Assembly: GCF_005217605.1 (NCBI RefSeq)
Contig: NZ_SZPX01000005.1
Span: 1-64,000, forward strand
DNA length: 64,000 nt
Origin: Sulfurimonas crateris
Lineage (GTDB): Bacteria; Campylobacterota; Campylobacteria; Campylobacterales; Sulfurimonadaceae
Direction: 5' to 3'
Shown here: positions 36,081 to 58,089 of the stretch, piece after piece
Numbering within the stretch: position 1 is the stretch's first letter
Layout of the letters: each line of letters begins with the position of its first letter
Position numbers and translations under genes: made by a program
Notes under the pieces: generated by a model
The model's input: only the letters and a program-made list of their open reading frames with translations
Told to the model about the DNA's origin: nothing
Database searches by the model: none

Positions 36081-37889
36081 CTACCATGGTTTCTCATCTG
36101 AATTTTTTTGGGTCTCATCTTCATCGTTTAGTCTATAAAGAAATGTAGCATTGCCGGAGTTAAGCTGCTTTATCCACTTCTGCTCCTCTTCATCGCTCAT
36201 TGTCTCATTTTGCATCTCCGCCGAGCCGTGCGAGCCGTTCTCATCGTTTTTTTCGTCCTCTTTCATATCTTTTTCTTTACTCTTTTGCTCTGTTTTACTC
36301 TCTTCGCTCTCTTTTGTTTCAGACTCTTCCTCTTCAGACTTTTCATCTTTTGACTCTTGCTCTTTATCACCCTTCTCATCTTTTTTGGAGCTATCTTTAT
36401 CGCCGCTCTCATCAGATTTTGAGTCCTGATTCTTATCGCTTTGCTCCTGTTTCTCTTCTTTGTCTTGCTTCTCTTGCTTATCATCCCCATCTTTTGAGTC
36501 GCTCTTTTGCTCCTCTAAAAGCTTGTTGACCTCTTGCAAGTTCTCTCTTGTCTCTTGGTCATCTATTATCTCCAAAGAGCTCTCATACGACTCAATAGCC
36601 TTTTGCAGATCGCCCGACTTCGCATAGGCGTTTCCGAGGTTAGAGAGACTCTTCGCTTTTAGCTCATCTTCCTCAAAAGCCGCTTTTTTATACGACTCTA
36701 TCGCCTCTTTATACTTTTCATCTTTATAGTAGGCATTTGCCGCATTGTAGTAGCTTTGCGGGTTTTGAGAGTTTTGTGCGTGCTCATTGTAGAGGTTTGC
36801 CGCCTCAGAGTAACTGCCGCTCTCATAAGCCTCTTTTGCCTTTTTTAGATCCATAAAGTCCAAGACTCCGGCTTCTGCTGAGGGAGTAGTAAAAAAAGCA
36901 AAAGAGAGAACAAACAGAGATGCTGCATTTTTAACCCTGCCAAGTGAGCTTGTAGCAATAAGGAGGATAAGGAGCGCAATTGCCAAAGGATAGTAAAAAA
37001 GAGGTGTGTGCTTCTGTATCTCTTCGCTTTTTAGCTCCTTCTCCTCGCTTATCTGGGTTATCTCCTTAAACATCCTCTTTATATCATCTGAAGATGTCGT
37101 GCTCTGTATATATACACCCCCTGTCTTTGTCGCCAACTCTGCAATATTCTCATTTAGCTTTGAGATGATTATCTCGCCTTTGTGTTTTACAAGAGTTCCG
37201 TCAGCTAGCTTTATAGGCGAGCCTTTTTGTGTGGCGATACCCAGTACAAAAACAGTGATATTGTTCTTTTTAGCTCTTTTGATCTCCTGCGAAAAATCAT
37301 CTTTGTCTCCGCCGTCACTTAGTATGAGAAGATACTTTTTATCCTTATCTTTCTCAGCTTTGCTAACGACATCCAAGACGGAGAGGAAATCTGTTCCCTT
37401 CTCTGTTATAGATGACGTATCAAGCTTGCGAAGCAGAAATGCTACGGCGGCGGTGTCAAAACTAAGCGGCGAGACGAGATAGGAGTTTTTTGCAAAAGCC
37501 ACTATTCCTATGCGCTCATTTGGAGCTTCATCCAAAAGCGTAAGCACTTTTGATTTTGCAGCTTCAAGTCTGTTAGGATAGATGTCGGGTGCGAGCATAG
37601 AATCTGATATATCTATGGCTATCATAATGTCTGCGCTCTTTGCTTTTACTTCAATTGTACCCTCTTTTATAGCGGGCTGGGCAAGTGCGACTATCATAAA
37701 AAATCCCACGAGAAAAAAGAGCGCATTTCTTGCTTTTAGAGTCAAAGAGTTTGTCTCTGCTCGAAGCCTCTCGATCACATCCGGAGCAAAAAAGGTTGCA
37801 AACTGCTCCTTTTGGGTAAGCAGCAATCCAAAGAGAATAAAGAGCGGAGGCAGCATATAGTAGAGAAACTCAGGGTGCAAAAATATCAT
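36081..37889 (-). CDS. VWA-TPR protein (BatB/BatC fusion), copy 1
   Basis: Two N-terminal membrane helices flank a short loop; a von Willebrand A domain with complete MIDAS (IAIDISDSMLAPD, then the conserved Thr in the SITEKGT loop and SDGGD) occupies about 85-280; a third helix is near 300-318 and a fourth near 328-345. TPR repeats follow (about 350-460), and the remainder to 580 is a Glu/Lys/Ser/Asp-rich stretch with very low complexity. The C-terminus ends EKPW, as in the second copy. The VWA and TPRs likely face the periplasm and organise protein assemblies. Confidence 0.85.
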   Translation of the reverse strand: MIFLHPEFLYYMLPPLFILFGLLLTQKEQFATFFAPDVIERLRAETNSLTLKARNALFFLVGFFMIVALAQPAIKEGTIEVKAKSADIMIAIDISDSMLAPDIYPNRLEAAKSKVLTLLDEAPNERIGIVAFAKNSYLVSPLSFDTAAVAFLLRKLDTSSITEKGTDFLSVLDVVSKAEKDKDKKYLLILSDGGDKDDFSQEIKRAKKNNITVFVLGIATQKGSPIKLADGTLVKHKGEIIISKLNENIAELATKTGGVYIQSTTSSDDIKRMFKEITQISEEKELKSEEIQKHTPLFYYPLAIALLILLIATSSLGRVKNAASLFVLSFAFFTTPSAEAGVLDFMDLKKAKEAYESGSYSEAANLYNEHAQNSQNPQSYYNAANAYYKDEKYKEAIESYKKAAFEEDELKAKSLSNLGNAYAKSGDLQKAIESYESSLEIIDDQETRENLQEVNKLLEEQKSDSKDGDDKQEKQDKEEKQEQSDKNQDSKSDESGDKDSSKKDEKGDKEQESKDEKSEEEESETKESEESKTEQKSKEKDMKEDEKNDENGSHGSAEMQNETMSDEEEQKWIKQLNSGNATFLYRLNDEDETQKNSDEKPW

Positions 37890-38815
37890 GCGTAACCCCT
37901 TTTGTTTCTAAGATATACATAGAGCATCAGCGAGAGCAGAGAGATAAAAAGAGGGAACTGATAGTAATAGTTTACATTTGTAAAACTCTCTCCCCTTATC
38001 TCTGACTTCTCAAGCTTGTCTATCGTTTTGTAGACCTCTTTTAGCTCATTCGCATTCGAAGCTCCAAACGCCACTCCGCCGCTCTCGTTGGCAATGCGCA
38101 GCAGTACGTCCTGATTATACTCATGCGGCATTCCTATGCCTATCGGGTAGACCTTGACGCCCTCTTTCTTTGCCATATCTATTGCCACGTCAAGCGGTAT
38201 CTTGTCGATCTGAGGAGTGGAGTAGCCATCCGTTAGCAATATCGCTATTTTTGTCTTGGAGTCACCCATCTTTAAGAGGTTTACACCCTGCGCCAAAGAA
38301 GTATTAAGTGCCGTATATTTTCCAGCCATTCCGATAGAGAGCTGCGAGAGTATCTTGTTCAATATATCCGCATCATACGTAGGAGGCGAGGCAATAAAAG
38401 AGAACGCGCCAAATACAACCAGACCTATGTTATCGTTTTGCCTCTCTTTGACAAACTCGCCTACGATCTCTTTGACTACGTCAAACCTTGTCAAGTAGTG
38501 GTTTTGGGCATCAAACCCCTCCGCCTGCATGGACTCTGAAGCATCCAGAATAAGAGCTATTTCATACCCCTCTTTTGGCTCGAGTTCATAAGGCTCATCT
38601 TTTACGGGCGACATTAGTGCGAGTATCATTCCTGCAATTCCTAGCCACTTTAAAAAGAGAAGTGTTTTTGATGCCGATACGCTACGCTTTAAAAACTCTG
38701 CCGTATGTGGAAAGTAGATTGATGGAAGCTTCATCTTGCAAAGAAAAGAGCAGAGAAGAAAAAGAAAAATAAGAGATGCAATTTGTGGAAACTCAAAGTA
38801 GATCCCATCAAACAT
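37886..38815 (-). CDS. VWA protein BatA-like, copy 1
   Basis: Membrane helices at about 10-28 and 50-68 and near the C-terminus (about 282-302) flank a periplasmic VWA domain. The MIDAS is intact (LILDASESMQAEG, Thr in KYTALNTSLAQG, LLTDGYSTPQ). Length 309. It overlaps the downstream BatB/C fusion by 4 bases and the upstream 135-residue gene by 8, so the module is tightly coupled. Confidence 0.86.
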   Translation of the reverse strand: MFDGIYFEFPQIASLIFLFLLCSFLCKMKLPSIYFPHTAEFLKRSVSASKTLLFLKWLGIAGMILALMSPVKDEPYELEPKEGYEIALILDASESMQAEGFDAQNHYLTRFDVVKEIVGEFVKERQNDNIGLVVFGAFSFIASPPTYDADILNKILSQLSIGMAGKYTALNTSLAQGVNLLKMGDSKTKIAILLTDGYSTPQIDKIPLDVAIDMAKKEGVKVYPIGIGMPHEYNQDVLLRIANESGGVAFGASNANELKEVYKTIDKLEKSEIRGESFTNVNYYYQFPLFISLLSLMLYVYLRNKRGYA

Positions 38816-39215
38816 CGATCATCTCCTTGTAAAGCTCTATATAGCCCAAAGTCTCTTGGCTAAACTCCTGCACCTCTTTTTTGTACTTGTACTCCTCAAG
38901 GCGGTTTGTGAGGTTTTCATACATCTCTTTGTGTCTTGGACTGTCATCTTTGAACGTAGCTCCCAGTGAGGTAATGAGATATGCGCTCTCTTTTGTATTT
39001 TTGAGATCAAGCGAGCTTAGAAGCCTGAAGTTCTCTTTTCGCAGATTAAAGGCATTGCGTTTTTTAAAGTACTTATAGATGAGATAACCGAGTGCCACAA
39101 CCAAAAGAAGCGCAATAGAGACAATGCCTAAAAAGTAGTAGAGCGAATACTCCTGCACCTCTACAATAGGCTTTATATCATGAAGCGGGATATCATAACT
39201 CTGCTCTTGTGCCAT
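38808..39215 (-). CDS. small membrane protein of the Bat module (DUF4381-like)
   Basis: A 135-residue protein: a short N-terminal segment with IPLHDIKP, one membrane helix (about 25-47) and a charged helical cytoplasmic tail. DUF4381-type proteins occupy this slot between the DUF58 and first VWA gene in many Bat operons; the call rests on size, topology and position. It overlaps the DUF58 stop by one base and batA1 by 8. Confidence 0.65.
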   Translation of the reverse strand: MAQEQSYDIPLHDIKPIVEVQEYSLYYFLGIVSIALLLVVALGYLIYKYFKKRNAFNLRKENFRLLSSLDLKNTKESAYLITSLGATFKDDSPRHKEMYENLTNRLEEYKYKKEVQEFSQETLGYIELYKEMIDV

Positions 39216-40045
39216 TATCTGCCCTCAAAAAGTCTACGAAGCTTTACGCCTGCGATGCTGTCGGTATACACTTTTGTAAATCTGATGCCGTCACGTCTTA
39301 GTCTCTCGAAGAGTCTGTGGTCATGTGCCGCTACTTTTTGGCTGTATGTTCTAACACTTGAAGCGTTAAAATCGCCCTCTAAGACCGCGCCGCTCTGGGG
39401 GTCGATAAGCGATGCAAATCCCATCTCTGGCGGATTCTCTTCAAGATGGTCTCTCACTATGACAGAGAGCACCTCATGTTTTCTTGCCAGAAGCCTGAAG
39501 TCGGGTATTTCAAAGTAGTCGCCGATAATCAAGATAAGCGATTTTCTCTTAAGCCTTTTAAAGAGCGTGTCTGCGATAAACTTGAAATCTACTTTTTTAT
39601 TGATGGCGTCAAAAGAGAGTATCTCCTCTACGCTTTTTTGCACGGAAGAGAGTTTTTTGCTCGGTTTTGCGTGCGAGACCATCTCATCTGTAAAGATGTA
39701 AGAGCTTAGAAGATCACCGTTTTTAAGCGTTGAAAAACCCAAAAGTGCGGCAACTTCGGCGATGGCTTCTTGTTTAAATCTCTTTGAGCCAAAATGCACG
39801 CTTCCGTTTAAGACAGAGACCACTACAACGCTGAGCTCTCTCTCTTCGCGAAATATCTTAATAAATGGTTTTTGCATCTTGGCGGTGATATTCCAATCAA
39901 TATGGCGGATGTCATCACCGGGCATATATTCACGAAGCTCGATAAAGTCATACCCCTCACCCTGAAAGATGGATGGGTTGTTTCCGACCATTTCACTAAA
40001 GACCTGACGTCTTGCGCGAACCAATATCTTTTGCAGTTTGCTCAT
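39215..40045 (-). CDS. DUF58 protein of MoxR-Bat module
   Basis: Cytoplasmic DUF58 family protein. The diagnostic motif YMPGDDIRHIDWNITAK is near residues 38-54, and the remainder has the VWA-like fold that lacks a MIDAS. Always paired with MoxR ATPases, it is thought to act as their adaptor. It lies 14 bases after moxR and overlaps the next gene by 1 base. Length 276 is normal. Confidence 0.9.
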   Translation of the reverse strand: MSKLQKILVRARRQVFSEMVGNNPSIFQGEGYDFIELREYMPGDDIRHIDWNITAKMQKPFIKIFREERELSVVVVSVLNGSVHFGSKRFKQEAIAEVAALLGFSTLKNGDLLSSYIFTDEMVSHAKPSKKLSSVQKSVEEILSFDAINKKVDFKFIADTLFKRLKRKSLILIIGDYFEIPDFRLLARKHEVLSVIVRDHLEENPPEMGFASLIDPQSGAVLEGDFNASSVRTYSQKVAAHDHRLFERLRRDGIRFTKVYTDSIAGVKLRRLFEGR

Positions 40046-40059
40046 AGTTTATGCCACAT

Positions 40060-41007
40060 CTACGGTATTGCAACTCTTTGAAGAACTTTTTCTATGATCT
40101 CATCGGTTGTAACTCCCTCAGCCTCTGCCTCGTATGTTAAAACTATACGGTGGCGCATAAGCTCTTTTGCGATGTAAGCAACATCAACAGGTGTTACGAA
40201 ATCTTTTCCTCTCATAAATGCCATCGCTTTTACGGCTTTGAACATATCGATGCTTACACGCGGAGACGCACCGAACTGGATAAAATCTTTTATATCGTCA
40301 AGTCCGTACTCGTGAGGGTTTCTTGTGGCATTTACAAGCTCGATCATATACTCTTCGACCTGCTCATCCACATGCACGTTTTTTACAGCCGCTTTTAGCG
40401 CATCGAGATCTTCATGCGTTATAACGCTCTCTATCGCCTCAAACTTGCCGCTGGAGATTCGTCTTGCGATCTCTAGCTCCTCCTCTTTTGTGTTGTAATC
40501 TACAATAAGTTTTAGCATAAATCTGTCTAATTGTGCTTCTGGAAGCTGATAGACACCCTCCTGCTCTACGGGGTTTTGAGTAGCCATAACAAAAAACGGA
40601 GGTTCTAGCTTGAATGTAGTATCTCCAAGCGTTACCTGCTTCTCCTGCATAACTTCAAGCAGAGCAGACTGAACTTTTGCAGGAGCACGGTTGATCTCAT
40701 CCGCCAAAAGCAAGTTTGTAAATATTGGACCTTTTTTTATCTTAAAGCTGTTGTTTTGCGGGTCATATATCTCTGCACCGAGTATATCCGATGGAAGAAG
40801 GTCGGGAGTGAACTGTGCACGTTTAAAATCAAGCCCAAGACTTTTTGCAAGCGCATTTACAGTTGTCGTCTTTGCAAGTCCGGGAACACCCTCGATAAGA
40901 ATATGTCCTTCACACAAAAGAGCAATAAGAAGAGCATCTATCATCTTCTCCTGCCCGACAACCACCTTAGAAACCTCTTTTTTAATCAACTCTATCTTAG
41001 AAATCAT
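40060..41007 (-). CDS. MoxR-family AAA+ ATPase
   Basis: AAA+ chaperone-like ATPase, cytoplasmic, likely forming hexamers. Walker A is EGVPGLAKTTTVNALA, Walker B LLADEINRAP, and sensor 1 FVMATQNPVEQEG, all intact. Length 315 is typical. It is the first gene of the second half of the Bat cluster and lies 88 bases downstream of the LpoB-like gene. The other Bat module has no MoxR, so this one may serve both. Confidence 0.93.
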   Translation of the reverse strand: MISKIELIKKEVSKVVVGQEKMIDALLIALLCEGHILIEGVPGLAKTTTVNALAKSLGLDFKRAQFTPDLLPSDILGAEIYDPQNNSFKIKKGPIFTNLLLADEINRAPAKVQSALLEVMQEKQVTLGDTTFKLEPPFFVMATQNPVEQEGVYQLPEAQLDRFMLKLIVDYNTKEEELEIARRISSGKFEAIESVITHEDLDALKAAVKNVHVDEQVEEYMIELVNATRNPHEYGLDDIKDFIQFGASPRVSIDMFKAVKAMAFMRGKDFVTPVDVAYIAKELMRHRIVLTYEAEAEGVTTDEIIEKVLQRVAIP

Positions 41008-41094
41008 TTAATTATAAACCTTGTTTTAAAAATTACTCTTTTATTGGCTCAAAGCATAGCAAAACGGCGTTAACTCACGGTAAAAAAAACTAAA

Positions 41095-41712
41095 TTACCA
41101 TGAAACAGCTTTATTACTTCCTCTCTTTGCGACAATGCGCTCATCTTCCCAATATGCAAGACCCGTTTTTATTTCAGTCAGAGACATCTGAAAATAGTAC
41201 TCGACTCTTTGTGTCTTAGAGTCAACTTTGATATTTCTTTGAAGTATCTTGCCCGATAAACTAAGATCGGGCGCTATCATGCTCCCTTTGCCAGCAACGC
41301 TCTTTTGGTCAAACTCAGCGTTTCCTCTTAGAGTCTCTCTTGCGTGCATCGACATCTCATCTTCTGCACCCTCTAATCCTACTGCGGTAGTGACGACCAC
41401 TTTGCCGCTTTGAAGCAGACCTACACGGATCTTTTTTATAAGCTGATCGGTATCTATATGCTGCATAGTGTCATTTACAATTCTTGAAACTACAAGAACA
41501 TAACGATCTCCACTCTTTTTATCCACCGCGCCAGAAGCGAGCAGTGACTCTATCATATCCTGTGCCGCACCTTGAAAATCTCTGTAGTCAAGACCCATTA
41601 CAGCCTCGCCCTTGTCATTGTCTATATCTATGTTCGTTGTTTTTGTCTCACATCCGCTAAACATGACTCCAAGAGCCGCTAAAATTATTGTCCATCGTAT
41701 TGTTCTTCGCAT
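41095..41712 (-). CDS. LpoB-like lipoprotein (PBP activator family)
   Basis: Lipoprotein with the signal MRRTIRWTIILAALGVMFSGC, lipobox FSGC at about residue 21, then a domain with YVLVVSRIVNDTMQHIDTDQLIKKIRVGLLQ, matching the LpoB/COG3417 fold. In Enterobacteria LpoB is an outer-membrane activator of PBP1b. The ATG at 41712 has AAGGAAG at ideal distance; the longer frame to 41823 lacks a signal peptide at its start. It overlaps the YcfL-like gene by 28 bases, paralleling the ycfL-lpoB pair of E. coli. Its partner PBP here is unknown. 205 residues. Confidence 0.8.
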   Translation of the reverse strand: MRRTIRWTIILAALGVMFSGCETKTTNIDIDNDKGEAVMGLDYRDFQGAAQDMIESLLASGAVDKKSGDRYVLVVSRIVNDTMQHIDTDQLIKKIRVGLLQSGKVVVTTAVGLEGAEDEMSMHARETLRGNAEFDQKSVAGKGSMIAPDLSLSGKILQRNIKVDSKTQRVEYYFQMSLTEIKTGLAYWEDERIVAKRGSNKAVSW

Positions 41713-42092
41713 ATTACTTCCTTTTGTGATTTTATATATAAGCGAAATGTAGTCGCTTTCGTATTTGGCGATGTTGCATTTATCTGAAACGGTTGGTTCG
41801 CGTAAGAAGGAACCGTCTGCCATTTTGAGAGTATGCTCTCTATCTTGAAGCCCTCTTTATCAAACCAGATGACCTGATACTCAAGAAGCTGATAGCTATC
41901 AGACCTGTTCTCTCCGATAACCTGCGCCTGCATAAAACCGTCAGACTTTTTTCGCCCTTTTATGTCGCTGACTACAATGTCGCTGTTGCCGCAGTTGCTG
42001 ATGACTTTGACTATTGAGTCGTTCATCTTAGGCTCTTTGGCGCAACCGCCAAAAATTAAAACCAAAAAAGCGATATATCCTATAAATCTCAT
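41685..42092 (-). CDS. YcfL-like lipoprotein (DUF1425)
   Basis: A 135-residue lipoprotein: signal MRFIGYIAFLVLIFGGC with lipobox FGGC (about 14-17), then a beta-rich DUF1425 domain with LLEYQVIWFDKEGFKIESI and FQINATSPNTKATTFRLYIK. In Gammaproteobacteria ycfL neighbours lpoB. It overlaps both neighbours only at the downstream side (28 bases) and follows the larger lipoprotein gene by 9 bases. Molecular role unknown. Confidence 0.75.
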   Translation of the reverse strand: MRFIGYIAFLVLIFGGCAKEPKMNDSIVKVISNCGNSDIVVSDIKGRKKSDGFMQAQVIGENRSDSYQLLEYQVIWFDKEGFKIESILSKWQTVPSYANQPFQINATSPNTKATTFRLYIKSQKEVICEEQYDGQ

Positions 42093-42101
42093 TAAAACTC
42101 C

Positions 42102-43511
42102 TTAAAACTCAATAACCGTAACACTCGGTCTTGAAGTAGCTGCAGCTATTTTAACATAAACAATAGCGTGTTTTGCACTCTTTGGGATCTCTACATTTAT
42201 ATTGTGAACTCCTGATTTTAGCAAGAGTTTATTACTAGATGGTATTTTAACTCTTGTAACCTGAAAATCTTTTGGCAAAGTATTCCAGCTTCTGGTGTCG
42301 GCATGTGTTGTTAAGAGTTGAAACGCCGCCGCAGCAAGTCCCAGATAGGGATTATCTCTCTTTGCTTCATACTGTGCGTAGGTTTTAATTGCCGCAGAGA
42401 GAAGTGCGCGGGTCAAAATATCGTTATATGTGTAGTTAAACTCAGTGAGTATCACACTCTCCATATCGCCTACTACCGAGGTCTTTGAGAGGCTCTTGCC
42501 GTCTGAGAGAACGTTTATGGCCTCGCTTGCGCTTGACCCCCTGCTCATCTGAGGGAGCGCTATGCCCGTGTAGATGACCTTGTTTGATGCCAGATAGATA
42601 GGGACGTTTATCTTAAACTCCTTCTTTGAGGCTACCAAACCGTTTTCATATATAACCCAGACATATCTCTCTTTTATAGCTCTGCCTGATAGCGCATACT
42701 CAACCATCTCAAAGTCGGACTCTACGGTTTTGTTGTTCGGCACCATTCCGTAGACCTCTTTAAGCAGCGACGATGATTTTGAGTAATCGCCCTCTATGGC
42801 AAAATAGAGACCTGCCAGATAGAGCGTAAATGGATTGACAAACTCCGGATATACGGCATACTGCCCAAGAGATGAGTAGTTTTTTGCAATGATGCTCTTC
42901 ACCTGTTGATTGTTAAGCGTATTCTCAATCGCTTTTGAGCCCTGCTCTCTCTTCTTTTGCTCTATCGCCTCTCTCTGTTTTGCAATAAGCTGGGCATAGG
43001 TCTCTTTTGCACGGCGCACTCTGTCTACAGCGCGGTTGAGCTCGACACGCACCTTTTGGGGCTCTTTAAGCGCCATATAATCAAGGGCTTTATATGTATT
43101 TACCATAATTGCTTCCGATATGGAGGCTTGGTAATCTCTTGCCGCATCGTTTAACATCACTCCTGTTAAATAGTCACTAGCACTGAGAGTTACAGTCTTT
43201 TGATGATGAGACTTTATAATAGCCTCCGCCTCATCTAAAAGCTCTATGCTGCTCTTATACTCCTTGGCAAAAAGGTAGCTGTTCGCGGCTTGCAGAGTTG
43301 GAAGAAGATTTGCATCATCGATCTCTGCCGTTTTGCTCTTCTCTTTTATCGATATTTGAGCCGATGCCATATAGTCACCCGCTACAAACTTTTCGTAACT
43401 CTGCTTGGAGCTGCCTATATCTACACCTACAGAGTTTGCCAGATTAGCCATACATCCGCCAAAGAACAGAGGCATAGAGAAAAGGAGTGCAGTGAGGAGG
43501 AGTTTTATCAT
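42102..43511 (-). CDS. COG3014-like lipoprotein
   Basis: Large lipoprotein (469 residues from ATG 43511; ATG 43529 also possible). Signal ends LFFGGCMANLANSVG, giving a lipobox FGGC. The middle is helical, with LNRAVDRVRRAKETYAQLIAKQREA (about 165-190), a long amphipathic helix, then FTLYLAGLYFAIEGDYSKSSSLL, which looks TPR-like. Matches COG3014 from memory. This family accompanies YcfL and LpoB in Shewanella- and Vibrio-type genomes. The start overlaps the next upstream gene's stop slightly or not at all, depending on the codon chosen. Confidence 0.72.
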   Translation of the reverse strand: MIKLLLTALLFSMPLFFGGCMANLANSVGVDIGSSKQSYEKFVAGDYMASAQISIKEKSKTAEIDDANLLPTLQAANSYLFAKEYKSSIELLDEAEAIIKSHHQKTVTLSASDYLTGVMLNDAARDYQASISEAIMVNTYKALDYMALKEPQKVRVELNRAVDRVRRAKETYAQLIAKQREAIEQKKREQGSKAIENTLNNQQVKSIIAKNYSSLGQYAVYPEFVNPFTLYLAGLYFAIEGDYSKSSSLLKEVYGMVPNNKTVESDFEMVEYALSGRAIKERYVWVIYENGLVASKKEFKINVPIYLASNKVIYTGIALPQMSRGSSASEAINVLSDGKSLSKTSVVGDMESVILTEFNYTYNDILTRALLSAAIKTYAQYEAKRDNPYLGLAAAAFQLLTTHADTRSWNTLPKDFQVTRVKIPSSNKLLLKSGVHNINVEIPKSAKHAIVYVKIAAATSRPSVTVIEF

Positions 43512-43518
43512 GCTGTTT

Positions 43519-44403
43519 TTATACCTCATCACTCTCAACTATCCAGAGATAAAGCTCACAGCTCTGCGGGTCAAGCCAGATATCTCTGATTTCTGCAGCA
43601 AAAGAGCTCTCTGCGCTTCTAATAACGGCGGAGGAGTCAAATATCTCCCCATTTATATCGTCACTTACTATTTTTAAGAGCTCATGTCTGGACTTTATCT
43701 GCATCTTTTTATCTCTGATAAGAGTCGATTTTGCAAGGGAGAGTGCAACTCTTTTCTGCTCAGCCAGACTCCTTCCTTCCTCTTTTTCGGCAATTCCCAC
43801 AGAGCCTAAAACTCCGCCCTGATTTGGTCTAAAAAACCAGACGGGCTTATTCTGAAAAAGTTCGCTCTTTGTATTAATGCTCTCTAAAAGCTCTCTTTGG
43901 TAGCATCTGCTCTCTATCAGCTCCTCCTTATCAAAAGGGCGTGTTGTCAAAGCAGGCAGCGGAGTTCTATTTTTTTGGGCACCCAAGCCCACTACTCTCT
44001 CAATACTCTCTTGCGGGCTCTCCACCAAGATGTAGAGCTTTCTATTTGAATCAAAAAATGCATCGACCTGATGAGCGTCGCTTAAAAAGAGCTCTGAGAG
44101 TGCAACTATTTTATCTTTGTATCTGTTTGATATCTTGTTATTGCCTACACTTGATTGGCTCTGCAGAGATGATGTTATGTATGAGCGTATATTATGCGCC
44201 AAAGAGCTCTTTGCCTCGTTTAGGGCAGCCGCTCTTTGTGTATAGACCCCTTGAAAATTGACCTCGCTTGAACCTACCGCCTGAGTCAAAGAGTGCTCAT
44301 TTACCCATAGCGGCAGCTGCTCTTTTGGCTTTGGCGAAAAAGCACATCCGCTTAGCAAAAAGAGTAATAAGGGCAGAAATATTTTATACAGAAGGCTTCT
44401 CAT
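43519..44403 (-). CDS. LPP20-family lipoprotein
   Basis: Lipoprotein with signal to LLFLLSGC (lipobox LSGC, about 17-20) and an LPP20-like domain: AVGSSEVNFQGVYTQRAAALNEAKSSLAHNI (about 40-70). A second, similar domain seems to be present, with GSVGIAEKEEGRSLAEQKRVALSLAKSTL (about 200-228). So it may be a tandem LPP20 protein. Length 294. It directly follows a 244-residue exported protein gene (0-base gap). FlgP in this window (60862) has the same domain type. Function unknown. Confidence 0.72.
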   Translation of the reverse strand: MRSLLYKIFLPLLLFLLSGCAFSPKPKEQLPLWVNEHSLTQAVGSSEVNFQGVYTQRAAALNEAKSSLAHNIRSYITSSLQSQSSVGNNKISNRYKDKIVALSELFLSDAHQVDAFFDSNRKLYILVESPQESIERVVGLGAQKNRTPLPALTTRPFDKEELIESRCYQRELLESINTKSELFQNKPVWFFRPNQGGVLGSVGIAEKEEGRSLAEQKRVALSLAKSTLIRDKKMQIKSRHELLKIVSDDINGEIFDSSAVIRSAESSFAAEIRDIWLDPQSCELYLWIVESDEV

Positions 44404-45138
44404 CTACTCATCTCTATAGAGCGTACCTTTGGCGACCTCTCTATCATCTTCATCTAGCAGCATAAAGAGCGACTGGGTATCGCTTACCTTTTTAAGTTCG
44501 ACAATAAGCAGGTCCGTGCATCTCTCATCCCCGTAACTCAGCTTCTGTTTGAACCTTACTTTAGTTGGCTCTTTTTTTTGGATGATAAGCTCACCGCCGC
44601 AGTTTGAAGCGATATAGTTTATGGTGGCTTCTCCAGAAGAGGTTATCTTTATGAGCACATCGCTGCTGCTTCCCTCACTTCTCATGATAAACCCGCTCCA
44701 GATACCGTAAAAACCGCGTCTGATCTGAGATATCTTCTCATCTGAAGCATCTATATCAAACTCTTTGACAGGAGAATATTTGGCTCTGTTTTTGAGATCT
44801 TCATCCGTTGCGTATGCCTCGATGCTTACTACGATGTCTCCAAAGTTCTCGCCGTTTCTAAACTTTGGCTCTCCCTTTATGCGCACCAGACCGCCTGATC
44901 GTTCGCGAACCACATCATCCATGACCTTACCGCCTACCATCACCGTCTCAGATATAAGAACTTCTCCGTATATCTCTTTTGCCGCCGCCTTTTTTGCCTC
45001 ATCAAGAGCTATCTCTTTTACCTCTAAAAAGCTCTTGTCGGGATATAGCATCTGATTTATCGTAACACTCTTTACAACGCTTTTGTCCGCAAAAGCCAAA
45101 GATAGAAAAAACGCAGCTATTATTAAAAAGTATCTCAC
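44404..45138 (-). CDS. exported protein of unknown function, FlgT/LPP20-like N-terminus
   Basis: Signal peptide MRYFLIIAAFFLSLAFA, then a domain with LDEAKKAAAKEIYGEVLI (about 47-64), the helix pattern seen in LPP20 and flagellar FlgT N-terminal domains. The second half is beta-rich (about 140-244) with two cysteines (NCGGE and DERCTD). 244 residues. I do not recognise the C-terminal domain. It stands between batD2 and the LPP20-like lipoprotein in the same transcription unit. Confidence 0.7.
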   Translation of the reverse strand: MRYFLIIAAFFLSLAFADKSVVKSVTINQMLYPDKSFLEVKEIALDEAKKAAAKEIYGEVLISETVMVGGKVMDDVVRERSGGLVRIKGEPKFRNGENFGDIVVSIEAYATDEDLKNRAKYSPVKEFDIDASDEKISQIRRGFYGIWSGFIMRSEGSSSDVLIKITSSGEATINYIASNCGGELIIQKKEPTKVRFKQKLSYGDERCTDLLIVELKKVSDTQSLFMLLDEDDREVAKGTLYRDE

Positions 45139-45187
45139 TTCTCTTCCCTTTTTTTTAAAATTTTAAATCATTCTAGTTAAAAAAGAT

Positions 45188-46291
45188 TTAACTCCATATT
45201 AACTTCTTTGCACTTTTAAGCGAAGTTACTTTTTTTGTCTCAATCTCGGATATGACCTTCTCATACCTCTTTGCATCTTTTAAGACCAGCATTATCATAA
45301 GCTCATCGACTGTTTTTGCATCTTCTACTTTTTGTCTGAACTCTTCATCACTATTTAGTTTTCTAGCTCCTTTTTTAAACTCTATCTTTGCGACTAAAAA
45401 TCCCGCCGCAAATGCCAGCAAATAGTAGATGTAGCTAATATCAAACTCAAAGCTCTCTTTTGGCTCCTCATCCAGAAGCTCCTCTTTGCTAAATCCAGCC
45501 TCAACGCTGACATCTGTTGTATCAATAGAGAGACTCCTCACTCTCTGCTCTTGCAGGTCAAAGTATGGTATCTCTATCTTTGGGATAGTAAACTCTCTCT
45601 CTGATACAAAAGCGAACTTCTGGCTCCACTCTCCGTGCAAACCATCCTCTTTAAGGACATAATCTTTAACGACCTCACCCGCAAACACTTTTACGCCCTC
45701 TATATTGAACTCTATGGGCTTTATAGCGTCGAAATTTCCGACTCCCTTGATAAACACCTCAATATGATAAGGCTCGTAAGCTTTTACTTTAGGCTCTCGC
45801 TTCTTCTCTTGGATGCTAAAATTTCCGACAAGAGAAGTGTTTGTCTCTTTAACGGTTACTTTTAAGACCTTTTGCGCAAAGGACTCTTTTGTAAAGTCCT
45901 CTTTTTGTACGTTGTCTCTGCCCAAAACGGTGTTTTCGATCGACTCTTTTGTGGTCTTTTTCATAACGGCTTCAAATGCGAACTCTATCTCGAGCGCCTC
46001 TTTTGCAAATGCAACGAACTCGTAGCTGTTTACCCTTTTGCCATCTACTATATGCTCGCTCTGGCTTAGGTTTTGAAGAGTGAACTTCTCATACTCGCCC
46101 GATGGATTAAACTCAATGGTGTAGAGCTCAGAAGCGTCGCTGAAACTGCAAACATACTTTAGATGGATCGCTTCGTGCAGATATGCGCTCGTTTTGTTAG
46201 CACTAGCACTCCATGTATATGTAGAAGCAGCAAGAGAGAGGTTTAAAAAAATAAAAACTATTAAAAAAATTCTACCAAGGCTTTTTCTCAT
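45188..46291 (-). CDS. BatD-like protein, copy 2
   Basis: Shorter BatD-family protein (367 residues against 475). Signal peptide (MRKSLGRIFLIVFIFLNLSLA), Ig-like domains with HEAIHLKYVCS and PYHIEVFIKGVGNFDAIKPIEF, and a membrane helix about 285-303 near the C-terminus. The arrangement matches copy 1, including the short charged cytoplasmic tail. It overlaps the BatBC2 stop by 20 bases, whereas copy 1 starts after its stop. Confidence 0.82.
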   Translation of the reverse strand: MRKSLGRIFLIVFIFLNLSLAASTYTWSASANKTSAYLHEAIHLKYVCSFSDASELYTIEFNPSGEYEKFTLQNLSQSEHIVDGKRVNSYEFVAFAKEALEIEFAFEAVMKKTTKESIENTVLGRDNVQKEDFTKESFAQKVLKVTVKETNTSLVGNFSIQEKKREPKVKAYEPYHIEVFIKGVGNFDAIKPIEFNIEGVKVFAGEVVKDYVLKEDGLHGEWSQKFAFVSEREFTIPKIEIPYFDLQEQRVRSLSIDTTDVSVEAGFSKEELLDEEPKESFEFDISYIYYLLAFAAGFLVAKIEFKKGARKLNSDEEFRQKVEDAKTVDELMIMLVLKDAKRYEKVISEIETKKVTSLKSAKKLIWS

Positions 46292-47693
46292 CTACACTCC
46301 TCTTGTTTATAAGTTCATACTGTTTTGAGCTGAGCTTTGCTTTGCCGCCGTTTAGGTTCACTTGGTTTTGTGACTCTGTCTTTTTGCCTTTGTCATCACT
46401 CCCGCTGCCCGCTTGTGCGCTTACTTTCATATTTGAGCCACCGCCCTCTTTGGGCTTCTTGGTCTGCTCTTTTTTAGCTAACGCTGATCTATCCTTGCTC
46501 TGCTGCTGCCCCGTGTTCATCTCTTTCTTCTCGCCCGCATCACGGATATACTCAAGATTTTCATCCGCCTCTTTTGAGTAGCTAAGCGTTAAGGACTTTA
46601 TGTAAGCTTCTCTCGCCTTTTCAAACTGCTGAAGTCTGACAAAAGTGTTTGCAATATTGTAGTAGATTATTGATTTTATCTCACTGTCGGCGGACTTTAC
46701 CATCTCAAAGTTCTGCAGCGCCTTTTCATACTCGCCGCTTCTGTAAAGCTCTGTAGCTTTGTTGAAAAACTCCATATTCTGGCTTGCGCTCAGATGCACG
46801 CCAAAGAGAAGCATAAATGCGACTACGTATCTCTTTAGAGTGGTAACGCTTACTAAAAAAGTGATGATGGCAAGAGCTATAAAGTAGTAGAAAAGTTCCA
46901 AATTTCTCATAATGGTCGTCTTGGACTCTTTATCCTCTTCTCTCTGCTCTTCAAGCGCATCAAGAAGTTCGTCAAGATCTTTTGTATAGACTCCACCGCT
47001 GACATCGCATATCTCTTTGGATGCGCTGTTCTCGCGGCTTACCACAATATCGCCAAGTTCATCTTTTAAAAGTTCGCCACTCTTCTCTCTTATTGTAGAA
47101 CCGGTTGCAGATGCCGTCATAAAGATATTTACAACTAAAGAGTTCTCCTTTGCAAATGCCGCTTCCGCCTCGTAATCAAGCTCATCACCGCCGTCGGTAA
47201 AGAGAACGACCGTAGCCTTTTTTGAGGCGGACATCTTTCTTGCTAATTTAAGTGCCGACATAATGGAGCTGCCCTGTGTGATAATAAACTTCTCATCAAG
47301 CGAGCCAAAAAGGTGAAGCAGAAGCTCTCTATCCTCGGTCAGAGGGGAGAGGATAACCGCGTTTGTAGTAAATCCAAGAACTCCGAATCTGCTCTTTTGC
47401 CTTGATTCGACCAGCTTTTTAAGCATCTCTTTTGCATAATCAAGTCTTGTCGGCTCCAAGTCGCTTCCCTGCATGGAGAATGAGAGATCTACCCCGATGA
47501 TTACGTCGCTTAACATCTGTTTTGACTCAATGGGCTCTTGCTCTATAACCGGTCTTGCAAGAGCCGTAACAATAAATATAAACGTCAAAATATAGCCATA
47601 CATGCCAACTCTGAACTCTCTTATATCTCTCTTTATAAAAAGAGGTACTATCAGGAGCAGAAGCCAGAGATACTCTGGATAGAGCAGAGTCAT
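46272..47693 (-). CDS. VWA-TPR protein (BatB/BatC fusion), copy 2
   Basis: Two N-terminal hydrophobic segments, a VWA domain with MIDAS (IIGVDLSFSMQGSD; Thr in ITQGSSIMSALKLA; LFTDGGDELDY) at about 65-235, two helices near 265-300, TPRs at about 310-380 and a Gln/Lys/Gly-rich tail to the C-terminus, which ends EKKPW as in copy 1. Length 473 against 602; the low-complexity stretch is much shorter here. It overlaps batA2 by 4 bases. Confidence 0.83.
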   Translation of the reverse strand: MTLLYPEYLWLLLLIVPLFIKRDIREFRVGMYGYILTFIFIVTALARPVIEQEPIESKQMLSDVIIGVDLSFSMQGSDLEPTRLDYAKEMLKKLVESRQKSRFGVLGFTTNAVILSPLTEDRELLLHLFGSLDEKFIITQGSSIMSALKLARKMSASKKATVVLFTDGGDELDYEAEAAFAKENSLVVNIFMTASATGSTIREKSGELLKDELGDIVVSRENSASKEICDVSGGVYTKDLDELLDALEEQREEDKESKTTIMRNLELFYYFIALAIITFLVSVTTLKRYVVAFMLLFGVHLSASQNMEFFNKATELYRSGEYEKALQNFEMVKSADSEIKSIIYYNIANTFVRLQQFEKAREAYIKSLTLSYSKEADENLEYIRDAGEKKEMNTGQQQSKDRSALAKKEQTKKPKEGGGSNMKVSAQAGSGSDDKGKKTESQNQVNLNGGKAKLSSKQYELINKRSVDEKKPW

Positions 47694-48613
47694 CTTCTCG
47701 CCTCCCTGTAGAGTAAAAAGAGCAAAATTGAAGATGCTAAAAGTAGAGCCGCCCAGTAGTAGTAATCTTTGAGGAGATACTCTCTGCTCTTTATCTTTGA
47801 AGATTCAAGCTCATCTATCTTCTCATAGATCTCTTTGAGTTTTTTTGCTGACTCCGCATAAAAAAAGTCGCCGCCGCTCTCGCTCGCTATCTTTTGCAAA
47901 AGCGCCTCATCAGCTTCGCCTCTGTTTCCCATGCCTATGGTGTATATCTTTATATCCTGCTCTTTTGCAAGATCTATCGCATCTTTTGGGGAGATCTCTC
48001 CGCTGTTGTGCTCGCCGTCTGTTAGCAGTATGATGATCTTGCTTTTTGCCTTTGAGTGTTTAAATGCCCTCACTCCATAGGCTATACCCTCGCCTATCGC
48101 GGTATTTTGACCTGCCATGCCGTGCGAGAGGTAACTTAGCATATCTACTACGATCTCTTTTTCATAAGTTATGGGAGAGGCGATAAAAGCAAAATCTCCA
48201 AAAAGCACTACGCCGACATTGTCGCTCTCTCTCTTTTGTATAAAATCAGAGGCGATAACCTTTGCGATCTCAAAGCGGGATAGTCTCTCGCCTTGGCTCA
48301 CCTCATCCTCCATATCAAAACCAGAAGCGTTCATAGAGCCGCTGCCGTCAATTGAGAGAACAATATCTTTTCCGTGTCTGTTTTGCGGGTTAAATTTATC
48401 GACGACTATCGGCGAAGAGAGTGCAATGCAGAGCAGAACAAAGATAAGAACTTTTAAAATGCGCTCAAGTTTTATGAAACTCTTCTTTGAATACAAGAGG
48501 TGCAGATGAGGAAAATATCTGGACTTCATAATCTCCCTGCACTTATACATACAGTATAAAATGGGAATTAAAAGCAGAATAAAATATGCATATTCAAAGC
48601 TAAAATAATTCAT
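47690..48613 (-). CDS. VWA protein BatA-like, copy 2
   Basis: Membrane helices about 8-22, 50-70 and near the C-terminus surround a VWA domain with intact MIDAS (LSIDGSGSMNASGFD; GQNTAIGEGIAYG; LLTDGEHNSG). Closely parallels copy 1 in length (307 against 309) and layout. It is the first gene of the 14-kb minus-strand block; the tRNA-Lys gene and its promoter lie divergently upstream, so its own promoter should be in 48614-48660. Confidence 0.84.
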   Translation of the reverse strand: MNYFSFEYAYFILLLIPILYCMYKCREIMKSRYFPHLHLLYSKKSFIKLERILKVLIFVLLCIALSSPIVVDKFNPQNRHGKDIVLSIDGSGSMNASGFDMEDEVSQGERLSRFEIAKVIASDFIQKRESDNVGVVLFGDFAFIASPITYEKEIVVDMLSYLSHGMAGQNTAIGEGIAYGVRAFKHSKAKSKIIILLTDGEHNSGEISPKDAIDLAKEQDIKIYTIGMGNRGEADEALLQKIASESGGDFFYAESAKKLKEIYEKIDELESSKIKSREYLLKDYYYWAALLLASSILLFLLYREARR

Positions 48614-53465: not shown

Positions 53466-54641
53466 TTATATCGCACTTTTAAATTCCGGATATGACTCGA
53501 CCCCGCACTCGTTAATATCCATACCGACAAGCTGCGCCTCATCACTCGCTCTGAATTTTGAGAATTTATTGATGAGAAATAAAACAGTATAGGAGACACT
53601 AAAAGCAAAAACTCCTATGACAACGACCCCTTTTAGCTGCGATACAAAAGAGACGTCCTTGACAAAAATTCCTACCGCCAAAGTTCCCCATATACCGTTT
53701 ACCAAATGCACAGAGAGCGCTCCAACGGGGTCATCAAGACGAAGTTTATCAAAAATAGGAACTGCAAAAACAACCAAAGCTCCACCAATCGCTCCTACTA
53801 TAATAGGTGTGTACATATTGTAGAGATCGGGTGCAGCCGTCACTGCAACAAGACCGCCAAGAGCACCGTTTAGTATCATCGTAATATCAAGAAGTTTATA
53901 TCTGATATGCATCAGTATCCCTGCTATGATAGCACCGCTAAGTCCTGCACTGTTTGTATTCATAATAGTCTTTGCCACAAGATTTGCACTCTCAACGCTA
54001 GATATTGAACCGACACTCCCGCCGTTAAACCCAAACCACCCTATCCAAAGAAGAAGCGCACCTAACACAACAAGCGGGATGTTTGATGCCGGGATAACTC
54101 TGATCCTGCCATCGACATAACGCCCACGTCTCGCACCAATAACAAGAATAGCAGCCAAAAGAGCCCATCCACCCGTAGAGTGTATAACGGTTGAGCCTGC
54201 AAGGTCATACATATCAATATCCAGCATAGTTCCAGCGAGTATATCCGCACCCCAGCTTAAATTTACTGCCAGAGGGTATATGACGGCTCCCATAATAACG
54301 GTAAAAATTGCCAAAGGGATTATACGTACACGCTCGCTCACACCGCCGCTCATAATGTTCACGGTTTTACCGACAAACGCCATCTGGAACATAAAAACAG
54401 CCCAAATACTGCTGTTTAAGCTATCCCAGCTTCCAAACGCAATCTTATACCCGACAAGCAAAAATGCCAAAGATGCGACCGCATATATCATTACGTTTAT
54501 AGTAAGAACTGCCGAGACGTTTTTGGTACGAACCAAGCCCGCTTCAAGCATTGCAAAACCGGGAACCATAAAGATGATAAGTGTCATTGTAAAGAGTGTA
54601 AAGAAGGTATCGAGGATATATTTAAGATCTGTCTCTAACAT
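53466..54641 (-). CDS. amt: ammonium transporter, copy 1
   Basis: Amt/Rh-family channel with about 11 helices. FMVPGFAMLEAGLVRTKN is the N-terminal family motif; the pore histidines are in AGSTVIHSTGGWALLAA and ALSVHLVNGIWGTLAVG. Length 391; unlike copy 2 it starts directly with a helix and has no cleavable signal. It is 300 bases downstream of glnK and probably the last gene of the nitrogen group, although the palindrome-rich region intervenes. Confidence 0.93.
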   Translation of the reverse strand: MLETDLKYILDTFFTLFTMTLIIFMVPGFAMLEAGLVRTKNVSAVLTINVMIYAVASLAFLLVGYKIAFGSWDSLNSSIWAVFMFQMAFVGKTVNIMSGGVSERVRIIPLAIFTVIMGAVIYPLAVNLSWGADILAGTMLDIDMYDLAGSTVIHSTGGWALLAAILVIGARRGRYVDGRIRVIPASNIPLVVLGALLLWIGWFGFNGGSVGSISSVESANLVAKTIMNTNSAGLSGAIIAGILMHIRYKLLDITMILNGALGGLVAVTAAPDLYNMYTPIIVGAIGGALVVFAVPIFDKLRLDDPVGALSVHLVNGIWGTLAVGIFVKDVSFVSQLKGVVVIGVFAFSVSYTVLFLINKFSKFRASDEAQLVGMDINECGVESYPEFKSAI

Positions 54642-54781
54642 ATAAAATCCTTTAAAAAATTAAAAGAAATTATATCTTAGAAACTTTGCATATTTTTATT
54701 TAACTGATTAATTTTTAATCAATTAACAAATAGAAAAGGAACGGGCTCCTCTTCTGTAGTTTAATAAAATTAATTATATCT

Positions 54782-54929
54782 GCCGCTCTATGCGGCTAGC
54801 TTTTCTAAAGAAACTTCGTTTTGTGCCACAACGACACTTCTAATTCTCGAAAAACTTGTTTTTCGTAGCTTTAGGGGGTTGGAAGGGACTTTAGTCCCTC
54901 CCGCTAAAACGGACTTGTTCGTTTTAGCG
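54782..54929. repeat. cluster of short palindromes downstream of glnK
   Basis: The 300-base gap between glnK and amt1 (54642-54941) has no real gene. Its right half holds successive inverted repeats: GCCGC/GCGGC (54782-54796), TTTCT/AGAAA (about 54802-54813), CGAAAAA/TTTTTCG with loop CTTG (54848-54865), GGGACT/AGTCCC (54885-54898) and CGCTAAAACG/CGTTTTAGCG (54902-54929). The last is 12 bases after the glnK stop, where a terminator is expected, but there is no U-tract. The left half is AT-rich with GATTAA/TTAATC at 54706-54720. Looks like a dispersed repeat or a structured RNA. Confidence 0.55.
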
Positions 54930-54941
54930 TGTAACGTTAGT

Positions 54942-55357
<416 letters not shown>

Positions 55358-55359
55358 AA

Positions 55360-56613
55360 TTATAGATTTAGTGCTTTTTCTCCGTGAACAGTCTCATCAA
55401 GTCCTCTGTTCTCACTATCATAATCGACTCTTCCGCCGCCTGTAAGCATCGAAGCTAAAAAGTAAACAGCCGCAGTTGCTATAGCACTGTAGACGATAGT
55501 CAAACCGATCGCTTGAAATTGACTTACCAGCTGAGAAGCCATATCGTAAGCCTCAGGCATCGCATAAGGAGCAATAAAGATTGCCGTAGCGATCGATCCC
55601 CAGATACCTACTAAACCGTGAATCCAAAAAGCATCCAACGAGTCATCCACTTTAAACATATTTTTTAGTTTTGCAACAGCAAAAAATCCTAATATACCAC
55701 CGACCAAACCGATGATTATAGCACCCTCAACTCCCGCACTTCCTGAAGCAGGAGTAATTGCAACAAGACCTGCAACCGCACCTGAAGCCCCACCTACGAT
55801 CGTAGCCTTTTTATAAACGAACCACTCAGCAATTATCCATCCTATAACACCCAGTGCAGCAGCAACGTTTGTTACCAAGAATGCAGATGCCGCAACACCG
55901 TCAGCAGCTAACTCTGAGCCAGCGTTAAAACCGAACCATCCGAACCATAGGAGTGCTGCACCAAGTGCCACTAATACAGGAGAGAAAGGTTTGATCGCAA
56001 CTTTGCCGTAATCTCTTCTTCTACCAAGTATCAGAGCTACGACCAGACCTGCAACACCTGCATTTAAGTGAACAACAGTTCCTCCTGCAAAGTCCATCTC
56101 TCCAAAGTTTAGAGTCTCTCCACCGCCCCATGCCCAGTGTGTGATAGGTGCATAGACAACTATGATCCAAAGTGCTGCAAATAGTATATATGTAGAGAAC
56201 TTTACACGCTCTATCATAGATCCGCTGGCAATCGCAACCGCAATAGCCGCGAATGTTCCCTGAAATGCGACAAAAAGAAGTTCAGGAATAGTTCCGCTTA
56301 GAGTCTCGGATGTAATTCCCGATAAAAGCAGCTTACCGCTTCCTATAATATCTCCCTCGCCAAAAGCAATAGAGTAACCGACTAAAACCCATACCAATGT
56401 ACCGATCGCATAAGCTCCCAAGCTCATACCTATAGTGTTTAACACATTCTTAGAACGAGTTAAACCACCGTAGAAGAGTGCCAATCCTGCAGGAGTCATA
56501 AGCATAACAAATGCAGTAGCAACCAACATCCATGCCGTATCACCGCTGCTTAACGCATCTTCCGCAAACACAAAAGACGGTATAGCCAACATACTAAACA
56601 AAAACCTCTTCAT
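55360..56613 (-). CDS. amt: ammonium transporter, copy 2
   Basis: Amt channel with a signal-peptide-like start (MKRFLFSMLAIPSFVFA) as in E. coli AmtB, followed by GLALFYGGLTRSKN, pore His in AGGTVVHLNAGVAGLV and FWIHGLVGIWGSIATAIF, about 11 helices. Length 417. It is first of three nitrogen genes (amt2, glnK, amt1) on the minus strand; on this strand a TATATAAT-like box lies about 30-40 bases before the start. The two amt copies differ enough to be distinct subfamilies. Confidence 0.95.
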   Translation of the reverse strand: MKRFLFSMLAIPSFVFAEDALSSGDTAWMLVATAFVMLMTPAGLALFYGGLTRSKNVLNTIGMSLGAYAIGTLVWVLVGYSIAFGEGDIIGSGKLLLSGITSETLSGTIPELLFVAFQGTFAAIAVAIASGSMIERVKFSTYILFAALWIIVVYAPITHWAWGGGETLNFGEMDFAGGTVVHLNAGVAGLVVALILGRRRDYGKVAIKPFSPVLVALGAALLWFGWFGFNAGSELAADGVAASAFLVTNVAAALGVIGWIIAEWFVYKKATIVGGASGAVAGLVAITPASGSAGVEGAIIIGLVGGILGFFAVAKLKNMFKVDDSLDAFWIHGLVGIWGSIATAIFIAPYAMPEAYDMASQLVSQFQAIGLTIVYSAIATAAVYFLASMLTGGGRVDYDSENRGLDETVHGEKALNL

Positions 56614-56826: not shown

Positions 56827-58089
56827 ATGATGAAAGCTAGAATTACGGCAAAGAGAATCATCTCGATGGTTGGTTTATCACTAATGTGTGCTACGGCAGC
56901 GGAGGCAACACCTGCGTTTGCTAGACAAATGGATGCAGATTGTATGTCTTGTCACTTTCAAAACATGCCAAAGCTGAATGCTTTCGGTAGAGATTTTAAG
57001 ATGTCGGGCTTTACGATGACAAGCGGTAAAGAGATGAAGAGTGAGCCAAACGGCGGTTTAGGTCTGCCAGAGACTCTAAACATGGCTTTTGTTATAAAAG
57101 CTCGTGTTCTTGACAGTGAAAACAAGTACGCTAAAACAGAGATTTTTGATGAATCTGCTTTCATCTTCGGCGGTAAAATAGCTGACAATGTAGGTACATC
57201 TATGGAGTTCGCTGAGGGCTTAATTGGGGGCAAGGTAACATTTGCTACTGAAGCTCTTGGTGGAAGAGTAGGTGCAACTTACCACATGACTGATGCGCTT
57301 GGTGCATTTGCGGGAACGGAGATATATACTACGGGTCTATACAGACCGGTTCGCCAGTTTGAGAATCGTAAAAAAACAAACATCTTCCAAAACCTAGGTA
57401 TCGGAGATGGTGAAGCTACCGGTGCTCAGGTTTACTATAGAGCAAATGGCTTCTATGCAACAGTAGGTGGGTATGTTCCTATGTTTGCAGCAAGTGCTGA
57501 GACTGGAACAGACTCTTTTAAAGCTTTGGCAAGAGCTGCATATGAGTTTAATATAGGTAGTTCAACAATCGCTCTAGGCGGATACTATATTGGCGGAAAT
57601 TCTGGGCAAGAACTTACTGACAGACTGCTAGATGGTACTGGCGAGCCTCTAAGTGATCTTGTTCACGGTCTAGATACGGATGCTTTGGATAGAGAGTCTG
57701 CTGGTATTGACCTCCAAGTAGAGAGCGCTATTGCTGATATGTCACTAATGCTAACTGGTGGTTATGTATTTAAGAATGACTATAGCTCTTATTATGACCC
57801 TAATGGCAACTTTCTTACATCTACTACTGCAATAAAGAGAGAGAGAACTGGTTACCATTTAGATCTTCAGATCAATCCGGTAGAGAGATTTGGCGCTAAA
57901 ATAGCTATCTTAGGCTATAACGACGAACTAATAGCTAATAATGACTACACTGTATACTCTCTTGGTTTAGAGTATAACATGAGACAAAACGTCCGTTTTT
58001 GTGTAGAGTATTCAAACACTTCACATGATAGTCCTACAAACACTTTAGAAGGCGATGAATTCTTGTTTATGTCTATGATTTCATTCTAA
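56827..58089 (+). CDS. monoheme cytochrome-porin, Cyc2-like
   Basis: Signal peptide (cleavage about after residue 27, AEA|TP), a single CxxCH heme site at residues 39-43, then NMPKLNAFGRDFKMSGFTM and a ~360-residue C-terminal part of alternating beta strands ending in LFMSMISF, a C-terminal Phe typical of outer-membrane barrels. The stretch TPAFARQ...C..CH..PKLN.FGR.FK closely resembles what I recall of Cyc2, the outer-membrane iron-oxidising cytochrome fused to a porin. Length 420 fits. Fe oxidation is a hypothesis; other small electron donors or acceptors are possible. AAGGGG precedes the start. Confidence 0.75.
   Translation: MMKARITAKRIISMVGLSLMCATAAEATPAFARQMDADCMSCHFQNMPKLNAFGRDFKMSGFTMTSGKEMKSEPNGGLGLPETLNMAFVIKARVLDSENKYAKTEIFDESAFIFGGKIADNVGTSMEFAEGLIGGKVTFATEALGGRVGATYHMTDALGAFAGTEIYTTGLYRPVRQFENRKKTNIFQNLGIGDGEATGAQVYYRANGFYATVGGYVPMFAASAETGTDSFKALARAAYEFNIGSSTIALGGYYIGGNSGQELTDRLLDGTGEPLSDLVHGLDTDALDRESAGIDLQVESAIADMSLMLTGGYVFKNDYSSYYDPNGNFLTSTTAIKRERTGYHLDLQINPVERFGAKIAILGYNDELIANNDYTVYSLGLEYNMRQNVRFCVEYSNTSHDSPTNTLEGDEFLFMSMISF

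Follow-up and report, generated by a model that had tools for sequence, protein, structure and literature searches.

Cyc2 proteins are recognized in the literature by an AXPXFAR[Q/K][T/Y] stretch, a PXL motif past the heme motif, a minimum length of 365 aa and a 16-strand barrel (PMC8406198), and the AXPXFAR[Q/K][T/Y] consensus served as a filter in the published curation of the family (PMC8406198). The templates named for the Cyc2 protein of Mariprofundus PV-1 are OprO and OprP (PMC8406198). The cyc2 gene is reported from all Zetaproteobacteria OTUs (PMC7029218), and Cyc2 proteins of Epsilonproteobacteria (Campylobacterota) have been reported as members of Cluster 1 that are nested within the Zetaproteobacteria (PMC12442345). 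Members of the genus Sulfurimonas are widespread sulfur oxidisers, and at least one of them transfers electrons outside the cell by a route that is not known (PMC6589767). The conserved monoheme porin carried by part of this genus is a concrete and testable candidate for such transfer.

Here we report the analysis of a gene for a 420-aa Cyc2-like fused cytochrome-porin (positions 56827..58089, plus strand) in a 64,000-nucleotide stretch of Sulfurimonas crateris DNA, the whole of which is called the window. With Cyc2 Cluster 1 (Mariprofundus PV-1, Gallionellaceae, Chlorobium) the protein has in common a single N-terminal CxxCH, a PxFARQ stretch, a PxL motif four residues on, a predicted 16-strand OprO/OprP-like barrel and the pattern of loop L3. 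It differs from Cluster 1 in overall sequence (about 22-28% identity), in the Met that most of its own clade, designated clade A, carries in place of Thr/Tyr, and in the position of this clade, which is separate and lies at or outside the Cluster 1 base. A second comparison is offered by the Sulfurimonas tandem pairs (loci L003, L015-L019 and L069), which form the sister clade and have the same start motif and length, but consist of two adjacent genes, whereas the window holds a single one.

The ORF begins with an ATG preceded by an RBS-like AAGGGG. Residues 1-27 (56827..56907, plus strand) resemble, by eye, a signal peptide with an A-x-A site, A-E-A at the end of the segment, and have pLDDT values below 50 in the structural model. 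They are followed by the N-terminal cytochrome domain, residues 28-64 (56908..57018, plus strand), with PAFARQ, CMSCH, PKL and FGRDFK. The only CxxCH of the protein is C39-M-S-C42-H43, in the context TPAFARQMDADCMSCHFQNMPKLNAFGR and with the surroundings TPAFARQMDADCMSCHFQNMPKLNAFGRDFKMSGFTM; the C-terminus ends in SMISF, with Phe as the last residue. By our own estimate, about 0.001 CxxCH motifs would be expected by chance in 420 aa at approximately 1% Cys and 2% His. The dN/dS values against five relatives (0.21-0.29) point to purifying selection. The ORF with one CxxCH and a Phe-ending barrel region, which had been proposed in an earlier sequence-only reading of this DNA, is thus real, given its exact coordinates, conserved motif and purifying selection. 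The scan for sigma-70 promoters and terminators gave no more than shuffled sequences did.

Comparison of the protein with the published signature gave a nearly complete agreement. The PXL motif lies four residues past CxxCH (CMSCH-FQNM-PKL), and the length of 420 aa exceeds the 365-aa threshold. The stretch ATPAFARQM fits AXPXFAR[Q/K][T/Y] save for its last position, where Met, which the earlier reading had not remarked on, stands for Thr/Tyr, and because of this residue we name the protein Cyc2-like rather than a strict Cyc2 member. Met after FARQ is found in 7 of the 7 aligned clade A members and in 10 of the 32 other sequences of the Cluster 1 side; the L040 protein, from the same clade A, has Thr at this position. 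FARQ, CxxCH and PKL are invariant across all seven aligned members, and the heme domain is 91% identical among orthologs and on average 61% identical to the Cluster 1 side. Clade A may have been omitted from the published Cyc2 sets, since their curation demanded Thr/Tyr. Screens that demand Thr/Tyr after FAR[Q/K] would miss a Campylobacterota clade, and therefore surveys reporting no Cyc2 may be incomplete. No conserved His that could serve as a distal ligand was found in the alignment apart from the His of CxxCH; Met64 and the clade-typical Met35, Met40 and Met59 are candidate distal ligands.

The Cluster 1 HMM constructed here, built from Cluster 1 relatives with the biochemically tested PV-1, A. 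ferrooxidans and Leptospirillum proteins left out of both profile and tree, scored 249 bits on the whole protein and 154 bits on the barrel alone, so that apart from its own clade and the sister tandem clade Cluster 1 gave the top score. The profile of Cyc2-like proteins from the Thiomonas/Xanthomonas side, a group that we define only as not Cluster 1 and to which no Cluster 2 or 3 label is given, reached 74 bits; these proteins have in common with the window's the FARQ-CxxCH start and a similar length, but a long, fully supported branch lies between. Ordinary Campylobacterota porins scored at most 18 bits. The tandem clade and the ordinary porins were each considered as the true family and ruled out by the HMM scores. 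Homology to Cluster 1 spans the barrel and loop L3, beyond the heme motif. That the protein is an ordinary porin with a CxxCH arisen by chance, or else some unrelated c-type cytochrome, could be suspected from the last strands, which weakly resemble those of ordinary Campylobacterota porins; the conserved motif, the difference between 249 and at most 18 bits and the full tree support make this explanation extremely improbable. There was no Pfam match for the 420-aa protein, and NCBIfam returned nothing except a weak cytochrome c7 match far under the cut-off.

The barrel is predicted to comprise residues 86-420 (57082..58086, plus strand). AlphaFold2, run with 41 sequences, produced a model with 16 barrel strands (pLDDT 82.5, pTM 0.83), in which a 41-residue loop joins strands 5 and 6. 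The 16-strand fold that the earlier reading had put forward for checking is thus what AlphaFold2 predicts, as a model and not a solved structure. A search of PDB sequences yielded nothing meaningful. Among solved structures the model matched best OprP (Z 22.5 over 294 residues at 3.3 A) and OprO (Z 22.4), the two PV-1 templates; the Z scores of some other 16-strand porins were within 1 of theirs. The likeness to these phosphate porins is one of barrel fold (Z about 22); they lack the heme domain and are 12-14% identical to the cytochrome-porin. A Gallionella Cyc2 folded as a control gave a like strand layout, a long loop between strands 5 and 6 and matches of the same class. The loop itself, which corresponds to porin loop L3 (residues 156-196; 57292..57414, plus strand), is 86% identical among orthologs and 49% identical to the tandem clade, and clade A and the Cluster 1 side have in common a pattern of roughly TD..G...G.E...TG..R..R..E.R. 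The loci L051-L059 encode ordinary Campylobacterota porins without CxxCH that weakly match the last strands of the profile (E about 1e-4), perhaps reflecting a distant common barrel.

The main phylogenetic tree comprised 75 proteins; the Mariprofundaceae match (L099) was truncated and long-branched, and 12 other sequences of its class were substituted for it. The tree contains a fully supported split between the Thiomonas/Xanthomonas side and the Cluster 1 side (100/100), and on the latter side a Campylobacterota-only group (99/94) unites clade A with the tandem clade and is sister to the Zetaproteobacteria, Gallionellaceae and the rest (100/96). Among constrained topologies, whose groups were picked after the tree was seen, uniting clade A with the non-Zetaproteobacteria core was rejected (p-AU 0.004), and uniting clade A and the tandem clade with the Zetaproteobacteria was not (p-AU 0.34). 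The tree of the barrel alone keeps the Campylobacterota-only group (99) and places it weakly among Zetaproteobacteria lineages. These results put the cytochrome-porin on the Cluster 1 side, where its clade may be the sister group of Cluster 1 or may branch from the base of that cluster. The Epsilonproteobacterial Cyc2 proteins described previously are nested in the Zetaproteobacteria (PMC12442345), a placement that the test made here for clade A and the tandem clade did not reject (p-AU 0.34).

The phylogeny and HMM scores bear out the Cyc2-like architecture claimed in the sequence-only reading, for the protein groups with the Cluster 1 side of Cyc2 and not with unrelated cytochromes. The same reading also offered a distinct branch with another substrate, which was right in part: the clade contains Campylobacterota only and lies at the Cluster 1 base or just outside it, and the other substrate belongs to a scenario that we regard as less likely than not. 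According to this scenario, an ancient Campylobacterota-only lineage would have split off at the base of the iron-oxidising Cluster 1 or earlier and would use another surface donor (or direction), such as sulfur minerals; if true, it ties sulfur-oxidising Sulfurimonas to extracellular electron transfer. The sister or basal position bears on the timing of the origin of Cluster 1 iron oxidation. The earlier reading had implied that a Campylobacterota host was surprising; a Cyc2-like protein is indeed encoded there, but the host is less so because Campylobacterota Cyc2 is already in the literature (PMC12442345).

Relatives of the cytochrome-porin were identified in 31 of the 135 genomes of the genus, the nearest named loci being those of Sulfurimonas sp. 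Kmv11 (81% identity) and KA11 (71%). Clade A comprises eight intact genomes of the genus, including that of the window, a disrupted copy in genome G094 and L040, from another genus of the same family. The G094 ortholog (L014:1444-2514) has the same gyrA and amtB neighbours as the window gene, but stop codons break its reading frame, and it seems to be a copy in decay. Other sublineages in the genus are the tandem pairs (L003, L015-L019) and the types with CHSQNGYPALN (L004, L024-L028), CHFQHYPSLN (L021, L022) and CHTVFPEL (L029, L030, L005). This one genus holds at least five Cyc2-like sublineages (L021, L022, L004, L029, L005), some inside Cluster 1, and such diversity suggests several separate acquisitions. 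The profile scan of genome contigs also yielded relatives from, among others, Gallionella, Nitrosomonadales, Thiomonas and Xanthomonas, and among the Zetaproteobacteria, the class of the Mariprofundaceae genome, 55 of 61 genomes had a match, which agrees with the published statement on the OTUs of this class (PMC7029218). A tblastn search of plasmids produced two matches, both weak and partial.

The gene is a single one, flanked by the divergent amtB-glnK-amtB cluster on one side and by gyrA on the other, a position that is kept in most clade A loci examined and is different in L065, L011 and L040. The amtB-glnK-amtB arrangement, at 53466-56613 of the window, is on the minus strand and so runs away from the cytochrome-porin gene; several relatives conserve it. 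The flanks of the related loci contained no conserved operon partner, and no redox partner or sulfur gene is linked to the locus. The isolated position of the gene, next to amtB-glnK in most of the carriers examined, and its patchy presence in the genus would suit a heme porin with a non-respiratory role, for example as a sensor of metal ions, in their detoxification or as a gate for solutes, but its heme domain is strongly conserved and resembles that of respiratory Cyc2, and we consider such a role improbable.

We therefore favour, with somewhat better than even confidence, a Cyc2-like outer-membrane protein that takes up electrons at the cell surface, most likely from Fe(II), and delivers them to periplasmic c-cytochromes and then to the cbb3 oxidase or denitrification. 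Once the protein is exported and its heme attached, the small N-terminal cytochrome would lie at the periplasmic mouth of the 16-strand barrel, probably against loop L3; the AlphaFold2 model is without heme, and this plug position is borrowed from a published proposal. A surface donor, most likely Fe(II), dissolved or mineral-bound, would give electrons to the cytochrome-porin, and mono- or diheme c-cytochromes of the periplasm would relay them to the cbb3 oxidase or denitrification enzymes. Uptake of electrons at the surface is thus the likeliest role, with Fe(II) as our best guess for the substrate; like these two, heme binding, the plug position, the direction of electron flow and the partner cytochrome are inferred. 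Several points speak against this reading. The protein may fall outside Cluster 1, the group with the best support for Fe(II) oxidation; most of the clade has Met in place of the diagnostic Thr/Tyr; the host is of a sulfur- and hydrogen-oxidising type; and the gene is without a linked redox partner. Two published studies of other Sulfurimonas species reported no Cyc2 and no iron-oxidation genes in them (PMC10066037, PMC11411561), and our search of the literature turned up no experiment on the function of a protein from this clade.

An electron path exists, since the genome of the window (2.21 Mb, 100% complete, 11 contigs) carries ccoN, ccoO and a ccoP-like subunit of the cbb3 oxidase, a match to the cytochrome b family of the bc complex and several small c-cytochromes; no Paired_CXXCH_1 multiheme match was detected in it. 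For Kmv11, a Sulfurimonas MAG from a mud volcano of the Kerch Peninsula, the accessible part of the source describes sulfur oxidation, an uptake hydrogenase, a bc complex, cbb3 and complete denitrification, and that part makes no mention of Cyc2 (PMC7565565). The same architecture and uptake may have been re-tuned in this branch for a sulfur oxidiser, with reduced or solid sulfur (S0, polysulfide, FeS, pyrite surfaces) as the donor. The clade is Campylobacterota-only and apart from the known iron oxidisers, and sulfur compounds are oxidised by this type of host (PMC7565565); the heme domain and loop L3, however, remain near Cluster 1, and a sulfur gene linked to the locus is absent, which leaves the sulfur donor unlikely. 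We know of no Cyc2 with a sulfur donor.

Electrons could also be exported, with Mn(IV) oxide or another solid as the acceptor, during internal oxidation of sulfide or thiosulfate. Sulfurimonas marisnigri grows with MnO2 and either of these sulfur compounds, by an extracellular route that is not known (PMC6589767), but does not use Fe(III) oxides, and the flow is inward in Cyc2 relatives with demonstrated activity (PMC8406198); outward transfer accordingly seems to us to have little chance of being correct, and we retain surface electron uptake.

Two gene arrangements were recorded in addition. At L069:3540-7928, a tandem Cyc2-like pair of the kind found in L003 and L015-L019 is adjoined on the other strand by a small ORF with one CxxCH, followed by an ORF that looks ferritin-like by eye. 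At 36081-48613 of the window, the minus strand carries MoxR/Bat-like genes for von Willebrand A and TPR proteins in two sets, apparently one operon type present twice, as judged by eye.
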